Assembly: GCA_024698145.1 (NCBI GenBank)
Contig: JAILRO010000054.1
Span: 1-64,000 of the forward strand
Reading direction: 5' to 3'
Origin: Lachnospiraceae bacterium
GTDB lineage: Bacteria; Bacillota; Clostridia; Lachnospirales; Lachnospiraceae
Length of the DNA stretch: 64,000 bases
Shown in pieces: positions 53,225-63,894 of the stretch. Made by a program: the position numbers and the translations under genes. The first letter of the stretch is position 1. The number at the start of each line of letters is the position of its first letter. The notes under the pieces were generated by a model, which had not been told where the DNA came from, did no database searches, and was given only the letters and a program-made list of their open reading frames with translations.

Positions 53225-53275
53225 TGTCGCATCGGAGCAAAATCCGGTGCGATTTTTGTATAGACGAGTAATATC
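53225..53275 (+). repeat. Dispersed hairpin element, copy 3
   Basis: The stem TCGCATCGGA / TCCGGTGCGA with a GCAAAA loop is followed by five T and the tail GTATAGACGAGTAATA. It directly follows the truncated toxin gene. Confidence 0.88.
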
Positions 53276-54255: not shown

Positions 54256-54300
54256 TTATCGCATCGGAATAAAATCCGGTGCGATATTTGTATATATGGG
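54256..54300 (+). repeat. Dispersed hairpin element, copy 4
   Basis: The stem TCGCATCGGA / TCCGGTGCGA with an ATAAAA loop is followed by TATTTG, a weaker T-run than the other copies, and the tail GTATATATGGG. It separates the alpha-CTD gene from the restriction system. A small inverted repeat AACGC/GCGTT lies further on at 54390-54405, before hsdM. Confidence 0.82.
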
Positions 54301-54454: not shown

Positions 54455-55963
54455 ATGGCATCAAAGACTAATGCTAACATAGGATTTGAAAAACAGTTAT
54501 GGGATGCGGCGTGTGTATTGTGGGGACACATTCCAGCGGCTGAGTATCGTAAGGTTATTATCGGATTGATATTCCTTCGTTATATTTCAGCGGCTTTTGA
54601 TAGAAGATATCAAGAACTCGTTGATGAGGGTGATGGATTTGAAGATGACATTGATGCATATACAATGGAGAATGTTTTCTTCGTTCCGGAAGAAGCTAGA
54701 TGGAATACAATTGCATCAGCCGCTCATACCCCTGAGATTGGTACGGTGATTGATAATGCAATGCGTGCTATTGAAGCAGATAATAAAGTTCTTAAGAATG
54801 TACTTCCTAAGAATTATGCAAGCCCAGACCTCGATAAGAGAGTATTGGGTGAAGTCGTAGATATCTTTACCAACAATATCGATATGAGTGACACTGAGGC
54901 GAGTGAAGATCTCCTCGGTCGTACTTATGAATATTGTATTGCTCAGTTCGCGGAAAAGGAAGGTGTAGGTGGTGGAGAATTCTATACACCGTCAAGCGTA
55001 GTAAAGACATTGGTTTCTATTCTTAGACCGTTTGAAAATTGTCGTGTGTATGATTGCTGCTGTGGTTCTGGTGGTATGTTTGTTCAGAGTGCTAAGTTTA
55101 TTGAAGCTCATTCCGGCAACAGAGGGGCTATTTCTGTATATGGTCAAGAGGCAAATGCAGATACATGGAAGATGGCAAAAATCAATATGGCTATCCGTGG
55201 TATTGATGCGGACTTTGGGCCTTATCAGGCAGATACATTCACAAATGATTTACACCCAACTTTAAAGGCAGATTTCATTCTTGCAAATCCCCCATTTAAC
55301 TATCATCCGTGGAATCAGGATAAATTGGTCGATGATGTTAGATGGAAATATGGTTTACCGCCAGCAGGAAATGCCAACTATGCTTGGATTCAGCACATGA
55401 TTCATCATCTTGCTCCTAACGGAAAGATAGGATTGGTCTTAGCGAATGGTGCGCTTTCAACACAGACTAGTGGTGAAGGAGATATTAGAAAAAATATTAT
55501 AGAGGACGACTTGGTTGAAGGTATTATCGCAATGCCTACACAGCTTTTTTACAGCGTAACAATTCCGGTAACACTTTGGTTTATTACTAAGAATAAAAAG
55601 CAGACTGGTAAGACGTTATTCATTGATGCAAGAAACATGGGACACATGGTTGACCGTAAGCATCGTGACTTTGATGATAAAGATATCCAGAAGCTCGCAG
55701 ATACATTTGAAGCATTCCAAAATGGAACACTTGAGGATGTAAAGGGATTCTGTAAGGTTGCTGCAACAGAAGAGATAGAGAAACAGGATTATATCCTTAC
55801 TCCAGGTAGATATGTTGGTATTGAAGAGCAGGAAGATGATGGCGAACCATTTGAAGAAAAAATGGGAAGATTAACATCAGAGCTTTCTGAAATGTTTGCA
55901 AAATCTCATGAACTCGAAGCTGAGATTAGAAGAAAGTTGGGGGCTATTGGATATGAAATCTAA
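54455..55963 (+). CDS. hsdM: Type I restriction-modification methyltransferase subunit
   Basis: The 502-residue N6-adenine methyltransferase has an HsdM N-terminal domain (WDAACVLWGHIPAAEYRKVI, LIFLRYIS) and a catalytic part with GGGEFYTPSSVV, the SAM-binding CCCGSGGMFVQ and the catalytic NPPF in ILANPPFNYHPW. Length and motifs are complete. GGAGG lies before the start. Its stop overlaps the first hsdS gene by 11 bases. It would work with either HsdS for DNA methylation, and with HsdR for cutting. Confidence 0.97.
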   Translation: MASKTNANIGFEKQLWDAACVLWGHIPAAEYRKVIIGLIFLRYISAAFDRRYQELVDEGDGFEDDIDAYTMENVFFVPEEARWNTIASAAHTPEIGTVIDNAMRAIEADNKVLKNVLPKNYASPDLDKRVLGEVVDIFTNNIDMSDTEASEDLLGRTYEYCIAQFAEKEGVGGGEFYTPSSVVKTLVSILRPFENCRVYDCCCGSGGMFVQSAKFIEAHSGNRGAISVYGQEANADTWKMAKINMAIRGIDADFGPYQADTFTNDLHPTLKADFILANPPFNYHPWNQDKLVDDVRWKYGLPPAGNANYAWIQHMIHHLAPNGKIGLVLANGALSTQTSGEGDIRKNIIEDDLVEGIIAMPTQLFYSVTIPVTLWFITKNKKQTGKTLFIDARNMGHMVDRKHRDFDDKDIQKLADTFEAFQNGTLEDVKGFCKVAATEEIEKQDYILTPGRYVGIEEQEDDGEPFEEKMGRLTSELSEMFAKSHELEAEIRRKLGAIGYEI

Positions 55964-56513
55964 TTGGAAAGAATATTGTTTGGGAGATATAGTTTCATTA
56001 GTAATTGATCATAGAGGCTTAACCCCTAAAAAGCTAGGTGGAGATTGGGCTAACGAAGGATATAGAGCGCTATCGGCAAAAAATGTTAAAACAGGAAGAA
56101 TTGTGCAACCAAATAGTATTAGATATGTGGACGATGAGATGTATCATCGATGGATGCCTGATGAGATAGAACGTGGAGATATTTTAGTTACATCAGAAGC
56201 CCCTTTTGGAGAAGTTCTTCAGTGGAATTCTGATGAAAAAATTATATTAAGTCAAAGATTGTTTGGTTTAAGAATATCAGAAGAATTTAATTCGGATTAC
56301 GTATATCACTATATGACAACTACAGCGTTCTTAGCAGAAATGCATTCAAGAGCGACTGGAACTACTGTTATTGGTTTAAGACAGCCTGAATTATTAAAAT
56401 GCAAGCTTTTTTGTCCTGATATCGAAACGCAGAACAAAATAGCGTCTTTGTTAAATGGATTAGATAGGAAAATAGAATTAAATGAACGTATAAACGATAA
56501 TTTAGCAGCTTAG
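55953..56513 (+). CDS. hsdS: Half-length HsdS, truncated at an inverted repeat
   Basis: The protein of 186 residues holds one target-recognition domain (WKEYCLGDIVSLVIDHRGLTP, ILVTSEAPFGEV, GLRQPELL) and a conserved helix (ETQNKIASLLNGLDRKIELNERINDN), then stops with LAA. A full HsdS has two such halves and about 400 residues. The stop lies just after the repeat at 56490-56506. Reading instead into the inverted half (from 57157 downwards on the minus strand) gives LAEQARIMFKQR in frame. The present form is therefore one state of a switch. Half-length HsdS proteins can sometimes dimerise, so it need not be inactive. Confidence 0.9.
   Translation: MKSNWKEYCLGDIVSLVIDHRGLTPKKLGGDWANEGYRALSAKNVKTGRIVQPNSIRYVDDEMYHRWMPDEIERGDILVTSEAPFGEVLQWNSDEKIILSQRLFGLRISEEFNSDYVYHYMTTTAFLAEMHSRATGTTVIGLRQPELLKCKLFCPDIETQNKIASLLNGLDRKIELNERINDNLAA
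56490..56506 (+). repeat. Inverted-repeat recombination site 1 (plus orientation)
   Basis: ATAAACGATAATTTAGC lies at the end of the first hsdS gene and codes for INDNLA. The 14-bp core AAACGATAATTTAG is shared by four sites: here, 59268-59283 in the same orientation, and 57156-57170 and 59973-59989 in the reverse orientation. Confidence 0.9.
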
Positions 56514-57139
56514 ATGTCGAGGTTGGAAACATCCAGTTCACCGGACATTAGCCGAGGCAGCAATGTGTCACGTAACTCGGCAAGCCGTCGATTTTCCTCG
56601 TTATTGGAGGCGATACTATCGAAAATCGTTATTATTGCATTAGTGAAATCCGTATCGTCTTGCTGCGGTTCAGGAATAACACATGCATTCAAATCAAGTG
56701 GCTTAATTGACGGATACGTGGATACACTTTGTTCTGCCAGCTGATGCATTTTCTCCACAAAAGTTGGATCAGTTAGTGCAAGGTATATAATTTCATTCGG
56801 AATAGTCTTTCTTTTGCTACGGATCACGGCGAACCCAGTTGAGCCGAGCATATTCGGCAATGGATTTGAGATAATACCGTAATGTAACTGGTTAGGTCGC
56901 ACTGTGGAATATACAATATCGTTTTTGCGGAGTATCCTGCGAGCTCGACTTGGAAGTTTTTCTTGAGATGGTTGAATACACTGAACCTCTGCAATAGTAC
57001 CATTTGTGATGTTACTGGTATCGAGATAATTAACAAATTCCCAATTATCTTTTGTTGAATAGGTTTCCGGGTTAATATCAGCAATCTCTGCAAGATGGCA
57101 CAAAGACCCTGTAGCATCTGTAAGCCGTTGTTTGAACAT
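56510..57139 (-). CDS. Inverted hsdS half-gene (silent second target-recognition cassette)
   Basis: The minus-strand frame of 209 codons from an internal ATG continues in frame upstream to the repeat at 57156. It encodes one target-recognition domain (HLAEIADINPETYST, NDIVYSTVRPNQLHYG) and the C-terminal HsdS helix ending RDTLLPRLMSGELDVSNLDI, which is close to the end of the second hsdS. It has no ribosome site of its own and no first domain, so it is probably silent in this orientation. Inversion would attach it to the first hsdS in frame. Confidence 0.88.
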   Translation of the reverse strand: MFKQRLTDATGSLCHLAEIADINPETYSTKDNWEFVNYLDTSNITNGTIAEVQCIQPSQEKLPSRARRILRKNDIVYSTVRPNQLHYGIISNPLPNMLGSTGFAVIRSKRKTIPNEIIYLALTDPTFVEKMHQLAEQSVSTYPSIKPLDLNACVIPEPQQDDTDFTNAIITIFDSIASNNEENRRLAELRDTLLPRLMSGELDVSNLDI

Positions 57140-57155
57140 TATACGAGCTTGCTCA

Positions 57156-57170
57156 GCTAAATTATCGTTT
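57156..57170 (-). repeat. Inverted-repeat recombination site 2 (minus orientation)
   Basis: GCTAAATTATCGTTT is the exact reverse complement of 15 bases of site 1. Beyond that the match breaks (G for A). With site 1 it borders an invertible segment of about 0.68 kb. Confidence 0.88.
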
Positions 57171-57202: not shown

Positions 57203-57532
57203 ATGACAATAGAAGAGACTGCAGAAAAATTACGTGTAAATAAAAAAACAGTTGAAAAATGGTGTGAGAAGAAATGGATTAGAGGTGTAAAAAAGGAGAA
57301 AAACGGAATGTATAATATTCCACAAAGTGTAAAAAGACCTTATTTTAAAAGAAGAGCGAAAGGTGATTCTATTTATACTAGTATTGTGAAGGCGGTTTTG
57401 GAGGGGTGTGACACTTCAGCTGCACTCTATGGTTTAAGTGACGATGAATATGAAAAATACATTTGTCAACTGAAAGATGCAGGAGTGATTGATTCGTATG
57501 TTGATTCGTTTACGGGAATTAGTTATTTATGA
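57203..57532 (+). CDS. Small excisionase-like HTH protein (109 aa)
   Basis: The protein of 109 residues starts with a MerR/excisionase-like HTH (TIEETAEKLRVNKKTVEKWCEK, then WIRGVKKEKNGMYNIPQSV), followed by a helical C-terminus. A ribosome site AGGAGAAGG precedes the start. It lies between the invertible cassette and the recombinase gene, the place where a recombination directionality factor or a repressor might be. This role is inferred from position and size only. Confidence 0.65.
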   Translation: MTIEETAEKLRVNKKTVEKWCEKKWIRGVKKEKNGMYNIPQSVKRPYFKRRAKGDSIYTSIVKAVLEGCDTSAALYGLSDDEYEKYICQLKDAGVIDSYVDSFTGISYL

Positions 57533-57731: not shown

Positions 57732-58718
57732 ATGAAAGATGAATTAATAACAGAAGTAATGCAGAGGATGTTGCCATACTTAGATAACGCTCAATTAAAG
57801 AGGTTGAAAATAGTTATGAGTCAGACGTTCTCTGATTATAAGGTAAAGAATGTAGAAGATAAGTTGGAAAAGGACGATAATGGTGAAATTATAACAATGT
57901 TTATATCTTCTAAAAGAGTTGAAGGATGCTCTGAAAAAACCTTGAAGTATTATCGTAATACAATTGATGATATGATTTCAGTAATTAACAAGAATGTTCG
58001 TCACATACTCACCGAGGATTTGAGAAAATATTTAACCGATTATCAAACTAAAAATCAGACAAGTCGGGTAACAATAGATAATATTCGTCGGATTTTGTCT
58101 AGTTTTTTTTCATGGCTAGAGGATGAGGATTATATTATCAAGAGTCCCGTACGACGTATTCATAAGATCAAGACGTCAAGTTGTATAAAAGAGACATATT
58201 CGGATGAAGATTTGGAAAAGTTGCGTGACAATTGTGATGAGTTGAGAGATTTAGCAATGATTGATTTGCTTGTATCAACAGGAATGCGTGTTGGAGAAAT
58301 GGTGATTTTAAACCGTGGTGATATTAATTTTACAGAAAGAGAGTGCATTGTGTTTGGTAAAGGAAATAAAGAGCGGATAGTGTATTTTGATGCCAGAACG
58401 AAGTTGCACTTAAAGAAGTACCTTGATAGTCGCACAGACGATAACCCTGCTCTTTTTGTAACGCTTCGTGCACCATACAAACGTTTACAAATCGGTGGTG
58501 TGGAGTGTAGACTTAGAGAACTCGGGAGAAGAATGAGTATTGTTAAAGTTCATCCACATAAATTTAGACGAACACTTGCTACAATGGCAATTGATAAGGG
58601 TATGCCTATAGAACAGTTACAGAGACTTTTGGGGCATCAAAGAATAGATACGACATTGCAGTATGCGATGGTTAAACAGTGTAATGTAAAAAATGCACAT
58701 AGAAAATATATAAGTTAG
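57732..58718 (+). CDS. Tyrosine recombinase (phage-integrase family)
   Basis: The protein has 328 residues, with an N-terminal SAM-like DNA-binding domain (about 55-150) and a C-terminal catalytic domain. The catalytic residues are visible: Arg in STGMRVGEM, Lys in GKGNKERIV, HKFRR, LLGHQRIDTT and the nucleophile Tyr in TLQYAMV. It is complete and probably active. Its position between two hsdS genes that carry inverted repeats makes it the likely enzyme of hsdS inversion. GAAGGAG precedes the start. Confidence 0.95.
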   Translation: MKDELITEVMQRMLPYLDNAQLKRLKIVMSQTFSDYKVKNVEDKLEKDDNGEIITMFISSKRVEGCSEKTLKYYRNTIDDMISVINKNVRHILTEDLRKYLTDYQTKNQTSRVTIDNIRRILSSFFSWLEDEDYIIKSPVRRIHKIKTSSCIKETYSDEDLEKLRDNCDELRDLAMIDLLVSTGMRVGEMVILNRGDINFTERECIVFGKGNKERIVYFDARTKLHLKKYLDSRTDDNPALFVTLRAPYKRLQIGGVECRLRELGRRMSIVKVHPHKFRRTLATMAIDKGMPIEQLQRLLGHQRIDTTLQYAMVKQCNVKNAHRKYIS

Positions 58719-58727
58719 GATGGTGAA

Positions 58728-59969
58728 ATGATGGATAATTGGAAAAAGGTTATACTATCCGATGTACTAAAGGAAAAGGGATATATTCGAGGACCTTTTG
58801 GGTCAGCATTAAAACGAGCAGAATTGTTATCAGAGGGAATTCCTGTATATGAGCAACAGCACGCTATATATAACAGTCGTGATTTTCGCTTTTATATAGA
58901 TGAAAAAAAACTCGTGGAAATGAAACGATTTCAAGTGAAAACAAATGATTTGATTATAAGTTGTTCGGGTACGGTCGGTAAGGTGTCAATTATTGAGGAT
59001 GACGCCCCTAAAGGAATTATTAGTCAAGCATTATTGCTTTTGCGAGTTAATGAAGATGTTATCTTGCCGTTATATTTGAAGTATTTTTTTACATCACGAG
59101 AGGGATATAACGCAATAGTGTCTCGGTCAAGTGGATCTGTTCAGATAAATATATCGAGGCGAAATGTGATTGAAAACATTCCATTATACCTACCGTCGCT
59201 TGATATCCAGCAAAAGATTGTAGGAATATTATCCAGTGTTGATGAAAAAATACGAAAGAATAATGAAATAAACGATAATTTAGAGGAGCAAGCGTTAGCC
59301 CTTTTCCGTCATTACTTCATGGATTTTGCACCATATGGCGGTGTTGCTCCTTCTAACTGGAAAGAAGTATCGCTAGATGATGTATGTACCCGGATAACTG
59401 ACGGATCGCACTATAGTCCCGCAGATGCTCCTGAATCTCCATACCCTATGTATTCCGTCAAGGATATGGAAACTTATGGTTTCAACTCTTCGTCCTGTAA
59501 GCACATCTCCGAGGAAGATTTCCGAAAAATGCAAAAAGGCGACTGTGTTCCTCTGCTTAATGACATCTTGGTCGCTAAGGATGGCAGTTATCTGAAAGCG
59601 ATATTCATCTGTTCCGAAGAGAAAGAAGAAGCAATACTTTCATCCATCGCTATTTTTAGACCAGATACAAATATCATAATTCCAGAGATTCTCCTATACC
59701 TCCTTAAGCAGCCTTCCGTTCGAAAAGATGTAGGCGATAACTATGTTTCTGGCTCAGCATTACCAAGAATAGTCCTTAAAGACTTCAAGAAATACCGTTT
59801 TATGCTTCCACCAATGGATGAACAGCTGAAAATTGGTTCTGTACTTCATACAATTAGGATGCAAACCAAGGCAAAGATCGACGAAATACAGTGCTTGTCA
59901 TCCACGAGAGATGCACTCTTACCAAAGTTGATGTCTGGTGTGCTGGATGTCTCTGATATTGACCTCTAA
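58728..59969 (+). CDS. hsdS: Full-length HsdS specificity subunit
   Basis: The protein has 413 residues and two target-recognition domains. The first (about 5-150) has WKKVILSDVLKEKGYIRGPFGS and DLIISCSGTVGKVSI. The central conserved helix NNEINDNLEEQALALFRHYF carries the repeat at 59268. The second domain (about 205-385) has VSLDDVCTRITDGSHYSP, and the end is RDALLPKLMSGVLDVSDIDL. Another repeat follows the stop. The second half is visibly richer in C and G than the first, which suits a cassette of separate origin. AGGATGG precedes ATG codons at 58728 and 58731. This is the intact specificity subunit in the present state. Confidence 0.94.
   Translation: MMDNWKKVILSDVLKEKGYIRGPFGSALKRAELLSEGIPVYEQQHAIYNSRDFRFYIDEKKLVEMKRFQVKTNDLIISCSGTVGKVSIIEDDAPKGIISQALLLLRVNEDVILPLYLKYFFTSREGYNAIVSRSSGSVQINISRRNVIENIPLYLPSLDIQQKIVGILSSVDEKIRKNNEINDNLEEQALALFRHYFMDFAPYGGVAPSNWKEVSLDDVCTRITDGSHYSPADAPESPYPMYSVKDMETYGFNSSSCKHISEEDFRKMQKGDCVPLLNDILVAKDGSYLKAIFICSEEKEEAILSSIAIFRPDTNIIIPEILLYLLKQPSVRKDVGDNYVSGSALPRIVLKDFKKYRFMLPPMDEQLKIGSVLHTIRMQTKAKIDEIQCLSSTRDALLPKLMSGVLDVSDIDL
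59268..59283 (+). repeat. Inverted-repeat recombination site 3 (plus orientation)
   Basis: ATAAACGATAATTTAG lies in the middle of the second hsdS gene, between its two target-recognition domains, in the same codon frame as site 1. Confidence 0.88.
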
Positions 59970-59972
59970 GCC

Positions 59973-59989
59973 GCTAAATTATCGTTTAT
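59973..59989 (-). repeat. Inverted-repeat recombination site 4 (minus orientation)
   Basis: GCTAAATTATCGTTTAT is the reverse complement of site 1 over 17 bases and of site 3 over 16, placed 3 bases after the hsdS stop. With site 3 it borders a 0.72-kb segment holding the second recognition domain. Confidence 0.9.
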
Positions 59990-60000
59990 AGGGGGAGAAT

Positions 60001-60783
60001 ATGAATTTATTTGATGATGAAAATAAAATAATAGAACATTTTCAACGTATACAGGATAAAGAAGTTTTCTTTCCAAGCTTAGATGATGAAATTGAGTCCC
60101 TTTATAGATCAATACATGAGACAGCAGAGTGGACTAATTGGACTTACAGTGCAGGTAAAGATGATCCGCCTCCGGATTATTACAACGATGTTATATCGGT
60201 AATGATGGATGTGATGCGTGTTGATGATCATGCATTTTTAAGTAAAAAAGGAAAAGTTATTAATCCAACGAATGCTGGAGAAAGCAAGCTTAGAAAAGAA
60301 TTGGATGAGAGTGGAATCTTAGAACTCTTTCCTAATTGCAAAGAAGTATTTATTAATGCAAAGACTCTACTGCCGACGGAAGAGGATCACAATTACACAT
60401 TTTATAAAGAGAACTTTGCACGTGTAGTTCGTGAACATGCAAAGAAGATAGAGTTATATAAGCAGAATCATCCGGGTTACAAAACAGTTTTCTTTGTAAT
60501 GGATGAGTCCTCAGCATATTTTCGTATATACGATAAGTCAATAAAAATTGAAGAAGGAAAAGGTGTTAAAGGCGCACCACATTTATTCTTTTTTGATAAA
60601 TCCTTTGTAGATGTGATGCAAGATGCACAAATTGATTATTTGATATGGTATGCGCCATTCAAATTACTAAGAACAAAAGATGGGATTTTTACAATGCCAC
60701 AAGCAGTTATTTACAATATTCACGAAATTGATTTCGAAGATATTGAGTACGATCAATCTGAAATGCGTAGTAGTGAAGTATAG
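60001..60783 (+). CDS. Hypothetical protein between hsdS and hsdR (260 aa)
   Basis: I do not recognise this soluble acidic protein of 260 residues. It has an acidic start (DDEIESLYRSIHETAEWTNW), a central basic helix, then a core with KTVFFVMDESSAYFRI, HLFFFDKSFVDVM, DYLIWYAPFKLL and MPQAVIYNIHEIDFED. This alternation of strands and acidic turns could be a nuclease-like fold, but no motif proves that. GGGGGAG precedes the start. It is 9 bases before hsdR, so it is probably made together with the restriction subunit and may be an accessory part of the system. Confidence 0.75.
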   Translation: MNLFDDENKIIEHFQRIQDKEVFFPSLDDEIESLYRSIHETAEWTNWTYSAGKDDPPPDYYNDVISVMMDVMRVDDHAFLSKKGKVINPTNAGESKLRKELDESGILELFPNCKEVFINAKTLLPTEEDHNYTFYKENFARVVREHAKKIELYKQNHPGYKTVFFVMDESSAYFRIYDKSIKIEEGKGVKGAPHLFFFDKSFVDVMQDAQIDYLIWYAPFKLLRTKDGIFTMPQAVIYNIHEIDFEDIEYDQSEMRSSEV

Positions 60784-60792
60784 GAGGAAGGT

Positions 60793-63700
60793 ATGACGTC
60801 ATTATACACGGAAGCTGATTATGAAAACTCAATAATAGAGCTATTTCAAGAAATGGGATATCAGCATATATATGGACCTGATGTTGAGAGAGATTTTACT
60901 AATCCTTTATTTGAATCAGAATTACTAGCTGCGTTATCAAGGATTAATCCAGATATGCCTTCCGATGCGATTTCAGATGCATTATTCAAACTTAAGAATT
61001 TTGAAAATGCTGATTTAGTACAGAAGAATGCTGTGTTTATGGATTATTTGCAAAATGGTATCGAAGTGCGTTATTTAGTAAAGGGTGAAGAACACTCAGG
61101 ACTGGTATATCTAATTGACTATAAAAATCCGTCTAATAATTCTTTCGTAGTAGCTAATCAATGGACGTTTGTTGAAAACAGTAACAAACGTCCGGATGTT
61201 TTGCTATTAATAAATGGATTGCCACTTGTATTAATTGAATTAAAATCCCCATCTAGAGAAGAAACAGATGCATCTGAAGCATATATGCAGATTCGTAATT
61301 ATATGCACGAAATTCCTTCAATGTTTATCTACAACTGTATTTGTGTAATGAGTGATCACCTTACATCAAAAGCAGGTACCATAACATCTGGCGAAGACAG
61401 ATTTATGGAGTGGAAGACCAAGGATGGTAATTATGAGAATACGCAATATGCTCAGTTTGATACTTTCTTCGAAGGTATTTTTGGCAAAGAGAGATTTCTG
61501 GATATCATAAAGAATTTTATCTGCTTTTCGAATGAGGGCATTAAAAAAGTAAAAATTTTAGCTGGATACCATCAGTATTTTGCTGTAAATAAGGCTGTGA
61601 TATCAACTAAAAATGCGACAGAGACAGACGGTAAGGGTGGTGTTTTTTGGCATACACAAGGTAGTGGTAAATCCTTATCTATGGTTTTCTATGCTCATTT
61701 GCTTCAGGATGCTTTAGAGAGTCCTACAATTGTTGTTATTACAGATAGGAATGATTTGGATGACCAGCTTTTTGGACAGTTTGCAAAGTGCAAAGATTTC
61801 TTGCGTCAGGAACCGATACATGCCGAGAGTAGAGAACACCTTAAAACATTATTAGATGGTCGTAAAGCAAATGGAATCATTTTTACTACGATGCAAAAGT
61901 TTGAAGAATCAGATGAGCCGTTATCAGAGAGAAGAAACATTGTTGTGATGGCTGATGAAGCACATCGTGGTCAGTATGGTTTAAAAGAAAAGGTTGATGC
62001 TAAAACAGGTGAGATAAAAATTGGTACAGCAAGAGTAATCAGAAATAGTCTGCCAAATGCTACATATATCGGCTTTACAGGTACTCCGATTTCTATGAAG
62101 GATAGAAGTACAAGAGAAGTATTTGGTGACTATATTGATGTTTATGATATGACACAGGCCGTTGAAGATGGGGCTACACGTCCTGTTTATTATGAGAGTC
62201 GTGTAATTAAGCTTAAACTGGATCAGGATACACTAAAGCTTATAGATGCAGAGTATGACATTATGGCAAATAATGCTGATCCTGAAGTTATCGAGAAAAG
62301 TAAGAAGGAACTCGGCCAGATGGAAGCAATACTCGGAAATGATGAAACGATTGCTTCTTTAGTAGATGATATCTTAGATCATTATGAGAATAACCGTGAA
62401 AATCTTTTGACTGGAAAAGCTATGATTGTAGCCTATTCTCGTGCAATTGCATTAAAAATCTATCGTCGAATATTAGAGATTCGTCCAGGATGGGAAGAAA
62501 AAGTTGCTGTAGTAATGACGGAGAGTAATAAAGATCCGGAAGATTGGCGAGGAATTATTGGAAATAAACGACATAGAGATGAATTGGCGAAAGAGTTTAA
62601 AGATAATGAAAGTCCTTTGAAAATAGCGATAGTTGTAGATATGTGGCTCACGGGATTTGATGTGCCATCTCTTGCGACAATGTACGTGTACAAGCCTATG
62701 CAGGGATATAATTTGATGCAGGCTATCGCTCGTGTTAATAGAGTATTCGAAGACAAAGAAGGTGGGCTTGTCGTTGATTATGTAGGTATTGCATCTGCTC
62801 TTAAGCAGGCGATGAATGATTACACAATAAGAGATAAAAAGAACTATGGTGATACAGATATTGCAACGGTAGCATATCCAAAATTCTTGGAAAAACTTTC
62901 TGTGTGTCGAGATTTATTCCATGGTTATGATTATTCAAAATTTACCAATGGTATAAATCTTGAAAGATCAAAAGCCATTAGTGGAGCTGTAAACTTTATT
63001 GTTGATGTGAATAGAGAAAAGGAACGGGAGGATTTCTTAAAAGAGGCATTATTACTACGTCAAGCATTGTCATTGTGCTCCTCTCTTGCAGAAGAAGAAC
63101 TTCGAATTGAAGCAGCGTTCTTTGAGTCTGTTCGCGTTCTTGTAATGCGAATTATGAATAAAGGTGAAGGGAAGAAGATTTCTTTGCCGGAAATGAATGC
63201 AAGGGTTAACGCTCTGTTGGAACAGAGTATCAAGAGTACAGGAGTTATTAATTTATTCTCTGATGTTAATGGAGATTTCTCTTTATTTGATCCAAAATTC
63301 TTAGAGGAAATTGGTAAAATGAAAGAGAAAAACCTTGCAGTTGAGTTGTTGAAAAAACTGATTTCAGAGCAAGTTATTATTTACAAACGTACCAACGTTG
63401 TTAAGTCTGAAAAATTTAGTGAAATTATTCAGCAGGCAATGAACAGATATCTTAATGGAATGCTTACCAATGAGCAAGTTATTGAAGAATTACTTAATCT
63501 TGCCAATCAAATTCAGGCTGCTCAACAAGAAGGACAGAAACTGGGACTCACAGCAGATGAATTGGCGTTTTATGATGCGTTAACGAAACCACAAGCTATA
63601 AAGGATTTTTATGAGAATGAAGAACTAATAGCTATCACTAAGGAATTGGCTGATGCATTAAGAAAGAATAAGACGATAGATTGGCAGAAACGTGATTCCG

Positions 63701-63894
63701 CTAGAGCGAAAATGCGTATGCTTATTAAGAAACTTTTGAAGAAACATAAGTATCCGCCAGAGGGCATGGATGATGCAGTTCAGACAGTTATGCTTCAGTG
63801 TGAACTTTGGACGGATAATAATGATATGATGGAAAAAAGAGTGATAAAATACGCTTCTAGAATGGGGGAGTATGTTTCCGAAATCAATAAATAG
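60793..63894 (+). CDS. hsdR: Type I restriction subunit HsdR
   Basis: The protein has 1033 residues, the usual HsdR size. The N-terminal nuclease has RPDVLLLINGLPLVLIELKSP (acidic residue and ExK). The translocase motor has Walker A FWHTQGSGKSLSM, DEAH box MADEAHRGQYG, IGFTGTPI, and the motif VI region AIARVNRVFEDKEGG. The C-terminal helical part binds the methylase core. It cuts DNA far from the site recognised by HsdS. AGGAGG precedes the start. The gene is intact, so changes in HsdS would alter restriction as well as methylation. Confidence 0.97.
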   Translation: MTSLYTEADYENSIIELFQEMGYQHIYGPDVERDFTNPLFESELLAALSRINPDMPSDAISDALFKLKNFENADLVQKNAVFMDYLQNGIEVRYLVKGEEHSGLVYLIDYKNPSNNSFVVANQWTFVENSNKRPDVLLLINGLPLVLIELKSPSREETDASEAYMQIRNYMHEIPSMFIYNCICVMSDHLTSKAGTITSGEDRFMEWKTKDGNYENTQYAQFDTFFEGIFGKERFLDIIKNFICFSNEGIKKVKILAGYHQYFAVNKAVISTKNATETDGKGGVFWHTQGSGKSLSMVFYAHLLQDALESPTIVVITDRNDLDDQLFGQFAKCKDFLRQEPIHAESREHLKTLLDGRKANGIIFTTMQKFEESDEPLSERRNIVVMADEAHRGQYGLKEKVDAKTGEIKIGTARVIRNSLPNATYIGFTGTPISMKDRSTREVFGDYIDVYDMTQAVEDGATRPVYYESRVIKLKLDQDTLKLIDAEYDIMANNADPEVIEKSKKELGQMEAILGNDETIASLVDDILDHYENNRENLLTGKAMIVAYSRAIALKIYRRILEIRPGWEEKVAVVMTESNKDPEDWRGIIGNKRHRDELAKEFKDNESPLKIAIVVDMWLTGFDVPSLATMYVYKPMQGYNLMQAIARVNRVFEDKEGGLVVDYVGIASALKQAMNDYTIRDKKNYGDTDIATVAYPKFLEKLSVCRDLFHGYDYSKFTNGINLERSKAISGAVNFIVDVNREKEREDFLKEALLLRQALSLCSSLAEEELRIEAAFFESVRVLVMRIMNKGEGKKISLPEMNARVNALLEQSIKSTGVINLFSDVNGDFSLFDPKFLEEIGKMKEKNLAVELLKKLISEQVIIYKRTNVVKSEKFSEIIQQAMNRYLNGMLTNEQVIEELLNLANQIQAAQQEGQKLGLTADELAFYDALTKPQAIKDFYENEELIAITKELADALRKNKTIDWQKRDSARAKMRMLIKKLLKKHKYPPEGMDDAVQTVMLQCELWTDNNDMMEKRVIKYASRMGEYVSEINK

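Follow-up and report, generated by a model that had tools for sequence, protein, structure and literature searches.

The 64-kb stretch of DNA analysed here (the window), from a Lachnospiraceae bacterium, contains a complete type I restriction-modification operon, with hsdM, hsdS and hsdR at one locus by Pfam and NCBIfam, and we consider it very likely that this locus is a four-site specificity switch of the SsuCC20p type with coordinated exchange. Two hsdS heads lie on one strand, on either side of a tyrosine recombinase gene, with both hsdM and hsdR in the locus. Judged from its sequence, the switch is probably active in this strain. The parts, by position in the window, are:

54455-55963, + strand: hsdM, N6 adenine methyltransferase subunit, 502 aa (Pfam N6_Mtase, E 1.6e-107; HsdM_N, E 2.9e-24)
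55953-56513, + strand: hsdS-A head, first recognition domain, half length, 186 aa, from the ATG at 55953 to INDNLAA-stop
56492-56505, + strand: R1, site core AAACGATAATTTAG, exact match
56505-56513, + strand: half-state ending, codons GCA GCT TAG (-AA-stop), read from the sequence, with TAG at 56511-56513
56510-57156, - strand: tail A, hsdS 3' half (listed ORF 56510-57139, open back to R2)
57157-57170, - strand: R2, site core AAACGATAATTTAG, exact match
57203-57532, + strand: cargo ORF, 109 aa, helix-turn-helix/excisionase-like (HTH_17), between R2 and the recombinase
57732-58718, + strand: tyrosine recombinase, XerA-like, 328 aa (Phage_integrase, E 7.3e-31; NF040815, 239 bits, cut-off 220)
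58728-59969, + strand: hsdS-B, full-length specificity subunit, 413 aa (Methylase_S in two stretches, E 3.1e-28)
59270-59283, + strand: R3, site core AAACGATAATTTAG, exact match, inside hsdS-B between its recognition domains
59974-59987, - strand: R4, site core AAACGATAATTTAG, exact match, directly past hsdS-B
60001-60783, + strand: ORF of 260 aa between hsdS-B and hsdR, without a Pfam or NCBIfam family
60793-63894, + strand: hsdR, type I restriction subunit, 1033 aa (TIGR00348, 616 bits; HSDR_N, SWI2_SNF2 and C-terminal domains)

The start of hsdS-A overlaps the 3' end of hsdM, and its head matches Methylase_S (E 3.7e-14) over residues 1-182 of the translated stretch 55959-56510. Tail A, which alone gave no Pfam match, appears to carry the second recognition domain and the C-terminus GELDVSNLDI in an unexpressed orientation; its stop codon, on the minus strand, overlaps the half-state ending of hsdS-A. 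In hsdS-B, which begins with an ATG 9 bp past the recombinase stop and on the same strand, the corresponding parts are a head (58728-59283) and tail B (59284-59969). The 260-aa ORF is outside the switch and has relatives in 2 other loci among those searched (L073 and L074). Upstream of hsdM, a 36-bp direct repeat (53227-53262 and 54259-54294, 92% identical, 1 kb apart; TCGCATCGGA...TCCGGTGCGAT) is hairpin-like, its copies possibly being terminators.

Four exact copies of the 14-bp core AAACGATAATTTAG are present in the 64 kb, in the order + - + -; about 0.002 copies are expected by chance on both strands, and no further copy was found in the 64 kb with up to 2 mismatches allowed. Between 55.9 and 60.1 kb there are 11 exact inverted 14-mer pairs, with overlapping 14-mers counted separately; 300 first-order Markov shuffles gave 0.4 on average and at most 3.5. 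R1 and R2 share one base more, the common 15-mer AAACGATAATTTAGC; the longer inverted pairs I1 and I2 are extensions of the R1-R4 sites, and a single core type is present in all four. Between the recognition domains, the core sits in the I-N-x-N-L motif. R1 and R2, 665 bp apart, bracket the inverted tail A beside the half-length hsdS-A, while R3 and R4 bracket the 3' half of the complete hsdS-B downstream of the recombinase: each second TRD is bracketed by inverted repeats, in two identical sets, and R1/R3 and R2/R4 form direct pairs.

All four head-tail joins are in frame, giving 399, 412, 400 and 413 aa. In the window, H2 (the head after the recombinase) is joined to tail B in a complete gene of 413 aa, and H1 (the head after hsdM) is in its half state of 186 aa. 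Inversion of R1-R2 in silico converts the 186-aa ORF into a 399-aa HsdS without an internal stop; inversion of R3-R4 leaves two half genes, both ending NDNLAA-stop. The initial annotation had described one invertible segment caught in its half-length state, and many of its elements stand: the 15-bp repeat with its reverse copy at 57156-57170 is real, the second half of an hsdS does lie on the opposite strand between the copies, inversion does yield the predicted product of about 399 residues in frame, and the complete tyrosine recombinase placed 560 bases away starts 562 bases from the end of R2. The hsdS-A stop does follow just past the 15-mer, with TAG beginning 4 bases after it rather than 9. 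What does not hold is the single segment: that account lacked R3, R4 and the full-length hsdS-B, and its repeats are half of a device with four sites and two hsdS genes, the second of them already complete, so that a flip of R1-R2 alone leaves two complete hsdS genes. A single two-repeat inverton is rejected on account of the four sites.

In the mechanism that we propose, H1 and H2 and tails A and B would be joined through the four identical sites, and the linked tyrosine recombinase would swap whatever lies past each site. As both tails fit both heads in frame, four full-length HsdS proteins would be possible. The exchange would be coordinated, either as paired inversions or as excision and reintegration via the direct pairs R1/R3 and R2/R4. 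Reasoned from the site order, single-cassette flips would alter the number of half genes, while the outer and inner inversions together (R1-R4 with R2-R3), or direct-pair exchange (R1-R3, then R2-R4), would keep it; these number-keeping exchanges together would reach all four head-tail pairs. We infer the action of the recombinase on R1-R4, the route of exchange, activity in the strain and the effects on methylation.

Relatives of the locus were collected by their recombinase. A scan of genome_contigs returned at least 539 relatives, of which the best 80 (67-80% identity) were kept; further, overlapping searches covered same-genus (26), family (397), order (392), class (391) and phylum (398) genomes, and 75 stretches were taken from these taxon-level searches, strong matches though not all of them. 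Among plasmids, 17 records matched and 13 were fetched. From the 169 loci with a recombinase match, 11 were dropped as duplicates (identical recombinase DNA) and 15 had fewer than three sites; another 44 fell outside, 24 without any repeat and 20 whose best repeat failed the motif filter, which missed site-like repeats in L041, L168, L171 and L226. This left 99 non-duplicate loci with at least three sites, and 78 after setting aside 21 outside the four complete forward states.

The same + - + - site layout recurs in these relatives. With all four sites classified, the 78 non-redundant loci (window included) divide into 41 half/full, 35 full/half, 2 half/half and no full/full, where about 18 full/full are expected under independence (Fisher p 3.7e-20, a guide only, the loci being related by horizontal spread and thus not strictly independent). 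With few exceptions, the locus therefore has one hsdS complete and the other half-length, which argues that the normal switch is coordinated and not an independent flip of each cassette; since an R1-R2 flip would yield full/full, seen in 0 of the 78, switching is probably coordinated.

The one-complete rule is not absolute, because half/half and reversed loci exist. The half/half loci are L077 and L118, and L036 is likewise half/half (two sites in the filter, cut by a contig end). Four of the 99 loci (L044, L053, L060 and L064) are reversed, with the recombinase and second head flipped, and have one complete gene; L062 is probably another, and L127 and L244 are further reversed loci. The arrangements of L105, L110, L210 and L222 agree with a single complete gene, a tail being broken or a site missing; L059 and L191 are aberrant, and in the rest of the 21 a contig end cuts the locus or the arrangement is resolved in part. 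A state with two heads and two complete genes has a single candidate, L190. On this 3.2-kb contig, which breaks off at or close to sites (directly at a site on one side, 88 bp away from a site on the other), there are probably two complete hsdS; that the left edge is a head was judged by eye. Three heads are present in L103 and in L245, two of them belonging to complete hsdS and one to a half gene. In L103, which enters the tally as half/full, the additional complete hsdS lies further downstream. On account of these two loci, "one half" may be a better rule than "one complete".

An independent check used 31 loci from viral_contigs, the nearest 23 of which were classified. One of them, L247, is in the full/half state and another, L262, in half/full; L244 is reversed and has one complete gene, and L245 is the three-headed locus. 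L254 looks reversed at other distances, and L246, L248, L249 and L252 have sites but are cut. Sites of this type are absent from the remaining 14 of the 23. Overall, the layout is found in many Firmicutes and in a few draft genomes outside, labelled Succinivibrionaceae, Ruminobacter and Spirochaetia. The strain's own genome has a second, incomplete locus of the same type (C56:1-4556; L165, L031), with a recombinase 68% identical, a half-length head ending INDNLSA, an inverted tail and a KilA-N cargo gene, and a similar contig is present in G015 (L225). Two contigs of about 3.2 kb, L065 and L081, have the repeat exactly at both ends and combine the same site with a different layout: besides a head and hsdM, they carry a recombinase gene that diverges from hsdM.

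Close relatives have the parts in different arrangements. In four Lactococcus plasmids (L119-L122), the compared parts outside the tails are identical save for one base in the downstream stretch of L122, and the two tails, P and Q, come in three arrangements: L119 and L122 have [H1-P; H2 half, Q], L120 has [H1-Q; H2 half, P], and L121, with P twice and Q absent, has [H1 half, P; H2-P]. In L121 (plasmid pJM1A), the two copies of the 649-bp tail are inverted and 100% identical, which could reflect exchange between plasmid copies or a mixed-culture consensus. L087 and L088 share both heads (100%) and one tail (99.8%) in opposite states, their other tails being unmatched; a tail flipped in place is seen both in this pair and in L160/L205. 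The initial reading of a phase-variable type I locus is thus borne out as far as a shuffling locus with its own recombinase goes, with arrangements that vary in relatives such as the Lactococcus plasmids; the strain's own 80-kb contig crosses the locus unbroken, so no switching is visible in its assembly.

Contig ends were compared with site positions in 21 non-duplicate loci that bear sites and whose contig ends between -3.0 and +4.3 kb relative to the start of the recombinase. Twelve of the 27 ends lie within 105 bp of a site (p 1.8e-5) and six within 12 bp (p 1.2e-6); with the 17 ends of site-less loci added (44 ends), the p values are 3e-3 and 2e-5. Such clustering is as mixed populations would give in an assembly graph, although conserved hsdS sequence can also break contigs without switching.

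The segment between the second site and the recombinase is variable. In 26 loci with at least three sites (window included), the gap exceeds 330 bp and contains an ORF, and the nine cargo proteins scanned gave Zeta_toxin, Fic, nucleotidyltransferase, YhcG/DUF1016, HepT-like, KilA-N, DUF3990 and DUF4160, with one unmatched. Zeta_toxin, Fic/DOC, nucleotidyltransferase, YhcG/DUF1016 and HepT-like cargo is carried by L045, L091, L082, L042 and L188 and, by eye, L096, L161, L163, L108 and L059. Toxin-antitoxin-like cargo would fit protection of an excisable segment. The cargo ORF of the window matches HTH_17 (E 9.9e-06, 26.2 bits, slightly below the 27-bit cut-off) and TIGR01764 excise (E 1.2e-4, below cut-off), and it may act as a recombination directionality factor; a role as conserved partner of the recombinase is unsupported, since phmmer in 89 loci returned only the window's own copy.

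These observations bear on how the switch would work and on the alternatives to it. That only R1 and R2 invert, turning hsdS-A between half and full length while hsdS-B stays on, is very unlikely: the pair is inverted and 665 bp apart, its flip is in frame, and L190 may be such a two-complete state, but R3 and R4 are identical to R1 and R2 and bracket an equivalent segment, and the product, two complete hsdS around the recombinase, is seen in none of the 78 resolved loci and, as far as the consulted portions of PMC10790761 go, was not found in long reads or PCR of S. suis either. Exchange by excision and reintegration via R1/R3 and R2/R4, as in pneumococcal tvr/SpnIV, instead of by inversion, is a possibility we take seriously while thinking it somewhat unlikely. 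By that route, a tail moves from head to head and never leaves zero or two complete genes or a reversed recombinase, in keeping with the rarity of the single-inversion products of half/full in the 99 loci (2 half/half, 0 full/full, 4 reversed), with the 35 full/half loci, full/half being the product of one excision and reintegration, and with the toxin-antitoxin-like cargo (Fic, Zeta_toxin, nucleotidyltransferase, HepT-like) on the segment to be excised. The tvr locus has Doc/Phd homologues on the corresponding segment, although its authors, in the sections of the paper used here, see no evidence of an addiction role (PMC6265443). Against excision, L119 and L120 swap tails at fixed states, needing an outer and an inner inversion, the tails of L087/L088 and L160/L205 are flipped in place, and the reversed loci show that inversion does occur. 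It is also conceivable, if on balance unlikely, that all inversions are free and that cells with two or no complete hsdS are selected against. Selection would account for the missing full/full and the rare half/half without a special recombination rule; reversed states, however, which would be neutral, are rare too, the three-headed L103 and L245 hold two complete genes, and solitary hsdS are common on lactococcal plasmids (77 reported in the part of PMC6458302 consulted), so that extra specificities seem to be tolerated. Broth cultures of S. suis were likewise without such forms by long reads and PCR, according to the same portions of PMC10790761.

Two further readings concern the half gene and the locus as a whole. 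A working half-length HsdS, acting as a dimer of halves so that the switch toggles between a full and a half enzyme, has a precedent in the truncated HsdS of NgoAV, which has its own specificity (PMC7394358, as excerpted), but is highly improbable here: the truncation falls at the INxNL motif, in the conserved inter-domain region where full-length relatives continue and where N182, N184 and L185 are invariant in 52 sequences, the other hsdS is complete in the same operon, and the ending resembles a degron. That the locus is a decayed, fixed remnant without activity agrees with there being no direct evidence of switching in the strain, yet it has hardly any probability in our view, given that the ORFs of hsdM, hsdR, the recombinase and hsdS-B are intact, the four cores are identical and the frame is kept for all four joins.

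The four-site switch with coordinated exchange, which we prefer to all of these, may have a further element in the ending of the half gene. We put forward tentatively, and as somewhat less than probable, that the recombination sites encode a conditional self-destruct tag on half-length HsdS. The C-termini -LAA and the tolerated variant -LVA are ClpXP (ssrA-type) signals, and the INDNLAA end of the window's half HsdS matches the -LAA rule. Where a head meets the wrong end of a tail, translation would cross the site into a built-in stop after -AA or -VA, and the ssrA-like C-terminus would route the half-length HsdS to ClpXP; when the head is joined to a tail start, the tag would never be translated. 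Together with coordinated exchange, such a tag would ensure one working specificity, with no lingering half subunit poisoning HsdM. If true, this would couple DNA rearrangement to proteolysis in a new way, the DNA site that truncates a protein also marking the truncated product.

At the tail-end flanks readable in the 99 loci, the half HsdS would end in -AA or -VA in 157 of 189 (AA 108, VA 49; alanine last in 169), one broken tail start each of L105 and L210 being counted as an end; the analysed loci contain 1,073 other stop-to-stop ORFs of 200 aa or more, and 15 of these end in this way. Among the 161 ends of standard length, 148 have Ala or Val as the first codon past L and 148 have Ala as the second; 24 are neither AA nor VA. 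Changes are uneven over the two codons: the wobble base of the first is off-consensus in 38 of 161 and the first base of the second in 3 (p 1.2e-9), and T replaces C at the second base 49 times in the first codon and 6 times in the second (p 6e-11). Ends of other length still give AA or VA in 20 of 28. The non-standard ends include NLCAA, NLYAA, NLAAA, NLYDVAA, NLDYQLVA, NLPYQSLMVA, NLRLQAA, NLMSA and NLLLQAV, among others, and a 47-codon insert ending SSLLAA in four loci; by themselves, in-frame insertions could reflect the need for a nearby stop rather than for -AA. Against the pattern, L112 has lost the stop and one end each of L188 and L192 is off; one site of L161 is unreadable. The viral_contigs loci have AA or VA at 10 of 15 ends, the others being -TA, -VD, -TT, -AV and one that reads on.

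Conservation at the DNA level, for binding of the recombinase, is disfavoured as the sole explanation of the GCGGCTTA flank: the recombinase must use tail starts too, yet these do not share the flank, and the changes are uneven over the codons. The strain's genome has clpX, and its tmRNA tag, ADNKLAYAA, also ends in -AA. ClpXP is described as acting on HsdR in restriction alleviation (abstract of PMC4231737). By titles and beginnings of abstracts, no report of an HsdS degron was found among the matches listed from the open-licence PMC literature, and a literature search on half-length hsdS with inversion found nothing; in the main text of the SsuCC20p paper (PMC10790761), "degrad-", "proteas-", "ClpX" and "stop codon" are all absent.

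Of the known systems, compared here through the portions of the cited papers available to us, the pneumococcal one named by the initial annotation is a looser relative: the kinship in shuffling holds, and SpnIII as the nearest system is set aside in favour of SsuCC20p. SpnIII/ivr/cod of Streptococcus pneumoniae likewise shuffles hsdS TRDs by a tyrosine recombinase and inverted repeats, but has three unlike repeat pairs where the window has one core, and only the hsdS co-transcribed with hsdM is active there, the others being DNA donors (PMC7096588, PMC7394358). In P. gingivalis and T. forsythia, the second hsdS is silent, on the opposite strand and without a start codon or promoter (PMC7394358). 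The window differs from that type in both respects: hsdS-B, by its sequence, lies on the same strand with an ATG, and R1-R4 share one core in place of more than one kind of repeat set. SpnIV/tvr of S. pneumoniae also shuffles TRDs by a recombinase and shares the toxin-antitoxin-like genes beside it, but has two direct-repeat types and circular intermediates (PMC6265443). The CC8 hsd locus of Listeria monocytogenes likewise has two hsdS around an integrase and four variants formed by inversion; it differs in the opposite orientation of its hsdS, and in two unlike repeat pairs, one of them at the 5' end (PMC4783014). The "type I RM shufflon" of Lactococcus megaplasmids pMPJM1 and pMPJM2, which we take to be the plasmids of L121 and L119, has the layout of the window and a recombinase 63% identical, with different sites and recognition domains (PMC6458302).

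The closest described system is SsuCC20p of Streptococcus suis (PMC10790761, PMC5198162). As far as those papers' consulted sections describe it, it matches the window in its type I operon, which includes a tyrosine recombinase and four TRDs, in 14-bp repeats that form two identical sets, and in one complete hsdS per locus; its four alleles have their counterpart in the four joins possible in the window. In SsuCC20p, the repeat sets flank TRD2 and TRD4, switching depends on the linked xerD, and the hsdS downstream of the recombinase is expressed (PMC10790761, mBio 2023). Every assembly with a complete locus has a single complete hsdS, and the authors report no two-complete, only-truncated or reversed forms in assemblies, long reads or PCR (PMC10790761). 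The Lactococcus relatives L119-L122 have the SsuCC20p repeat, TAAATCATCATTTA, as their site, and the core of the window, TAAACGATAATTTA, differs from it; the window adds the HTH/excisionase-like cargo ORF, and its host is a member of the Lachnospiraceae, with switching shown in S. suis and inferred in the window. Because the authors of SsuCC20p already report a single complete hsdS, the one-complete rule is already known, and what is added here is its breadth. The four-site switch has so far been experimentally characterised in one species; with the layout and the near one-complete rule extending across many Firmicutes, coordination looks like a general property of such switches, testable in hosts such as Lactococcus.
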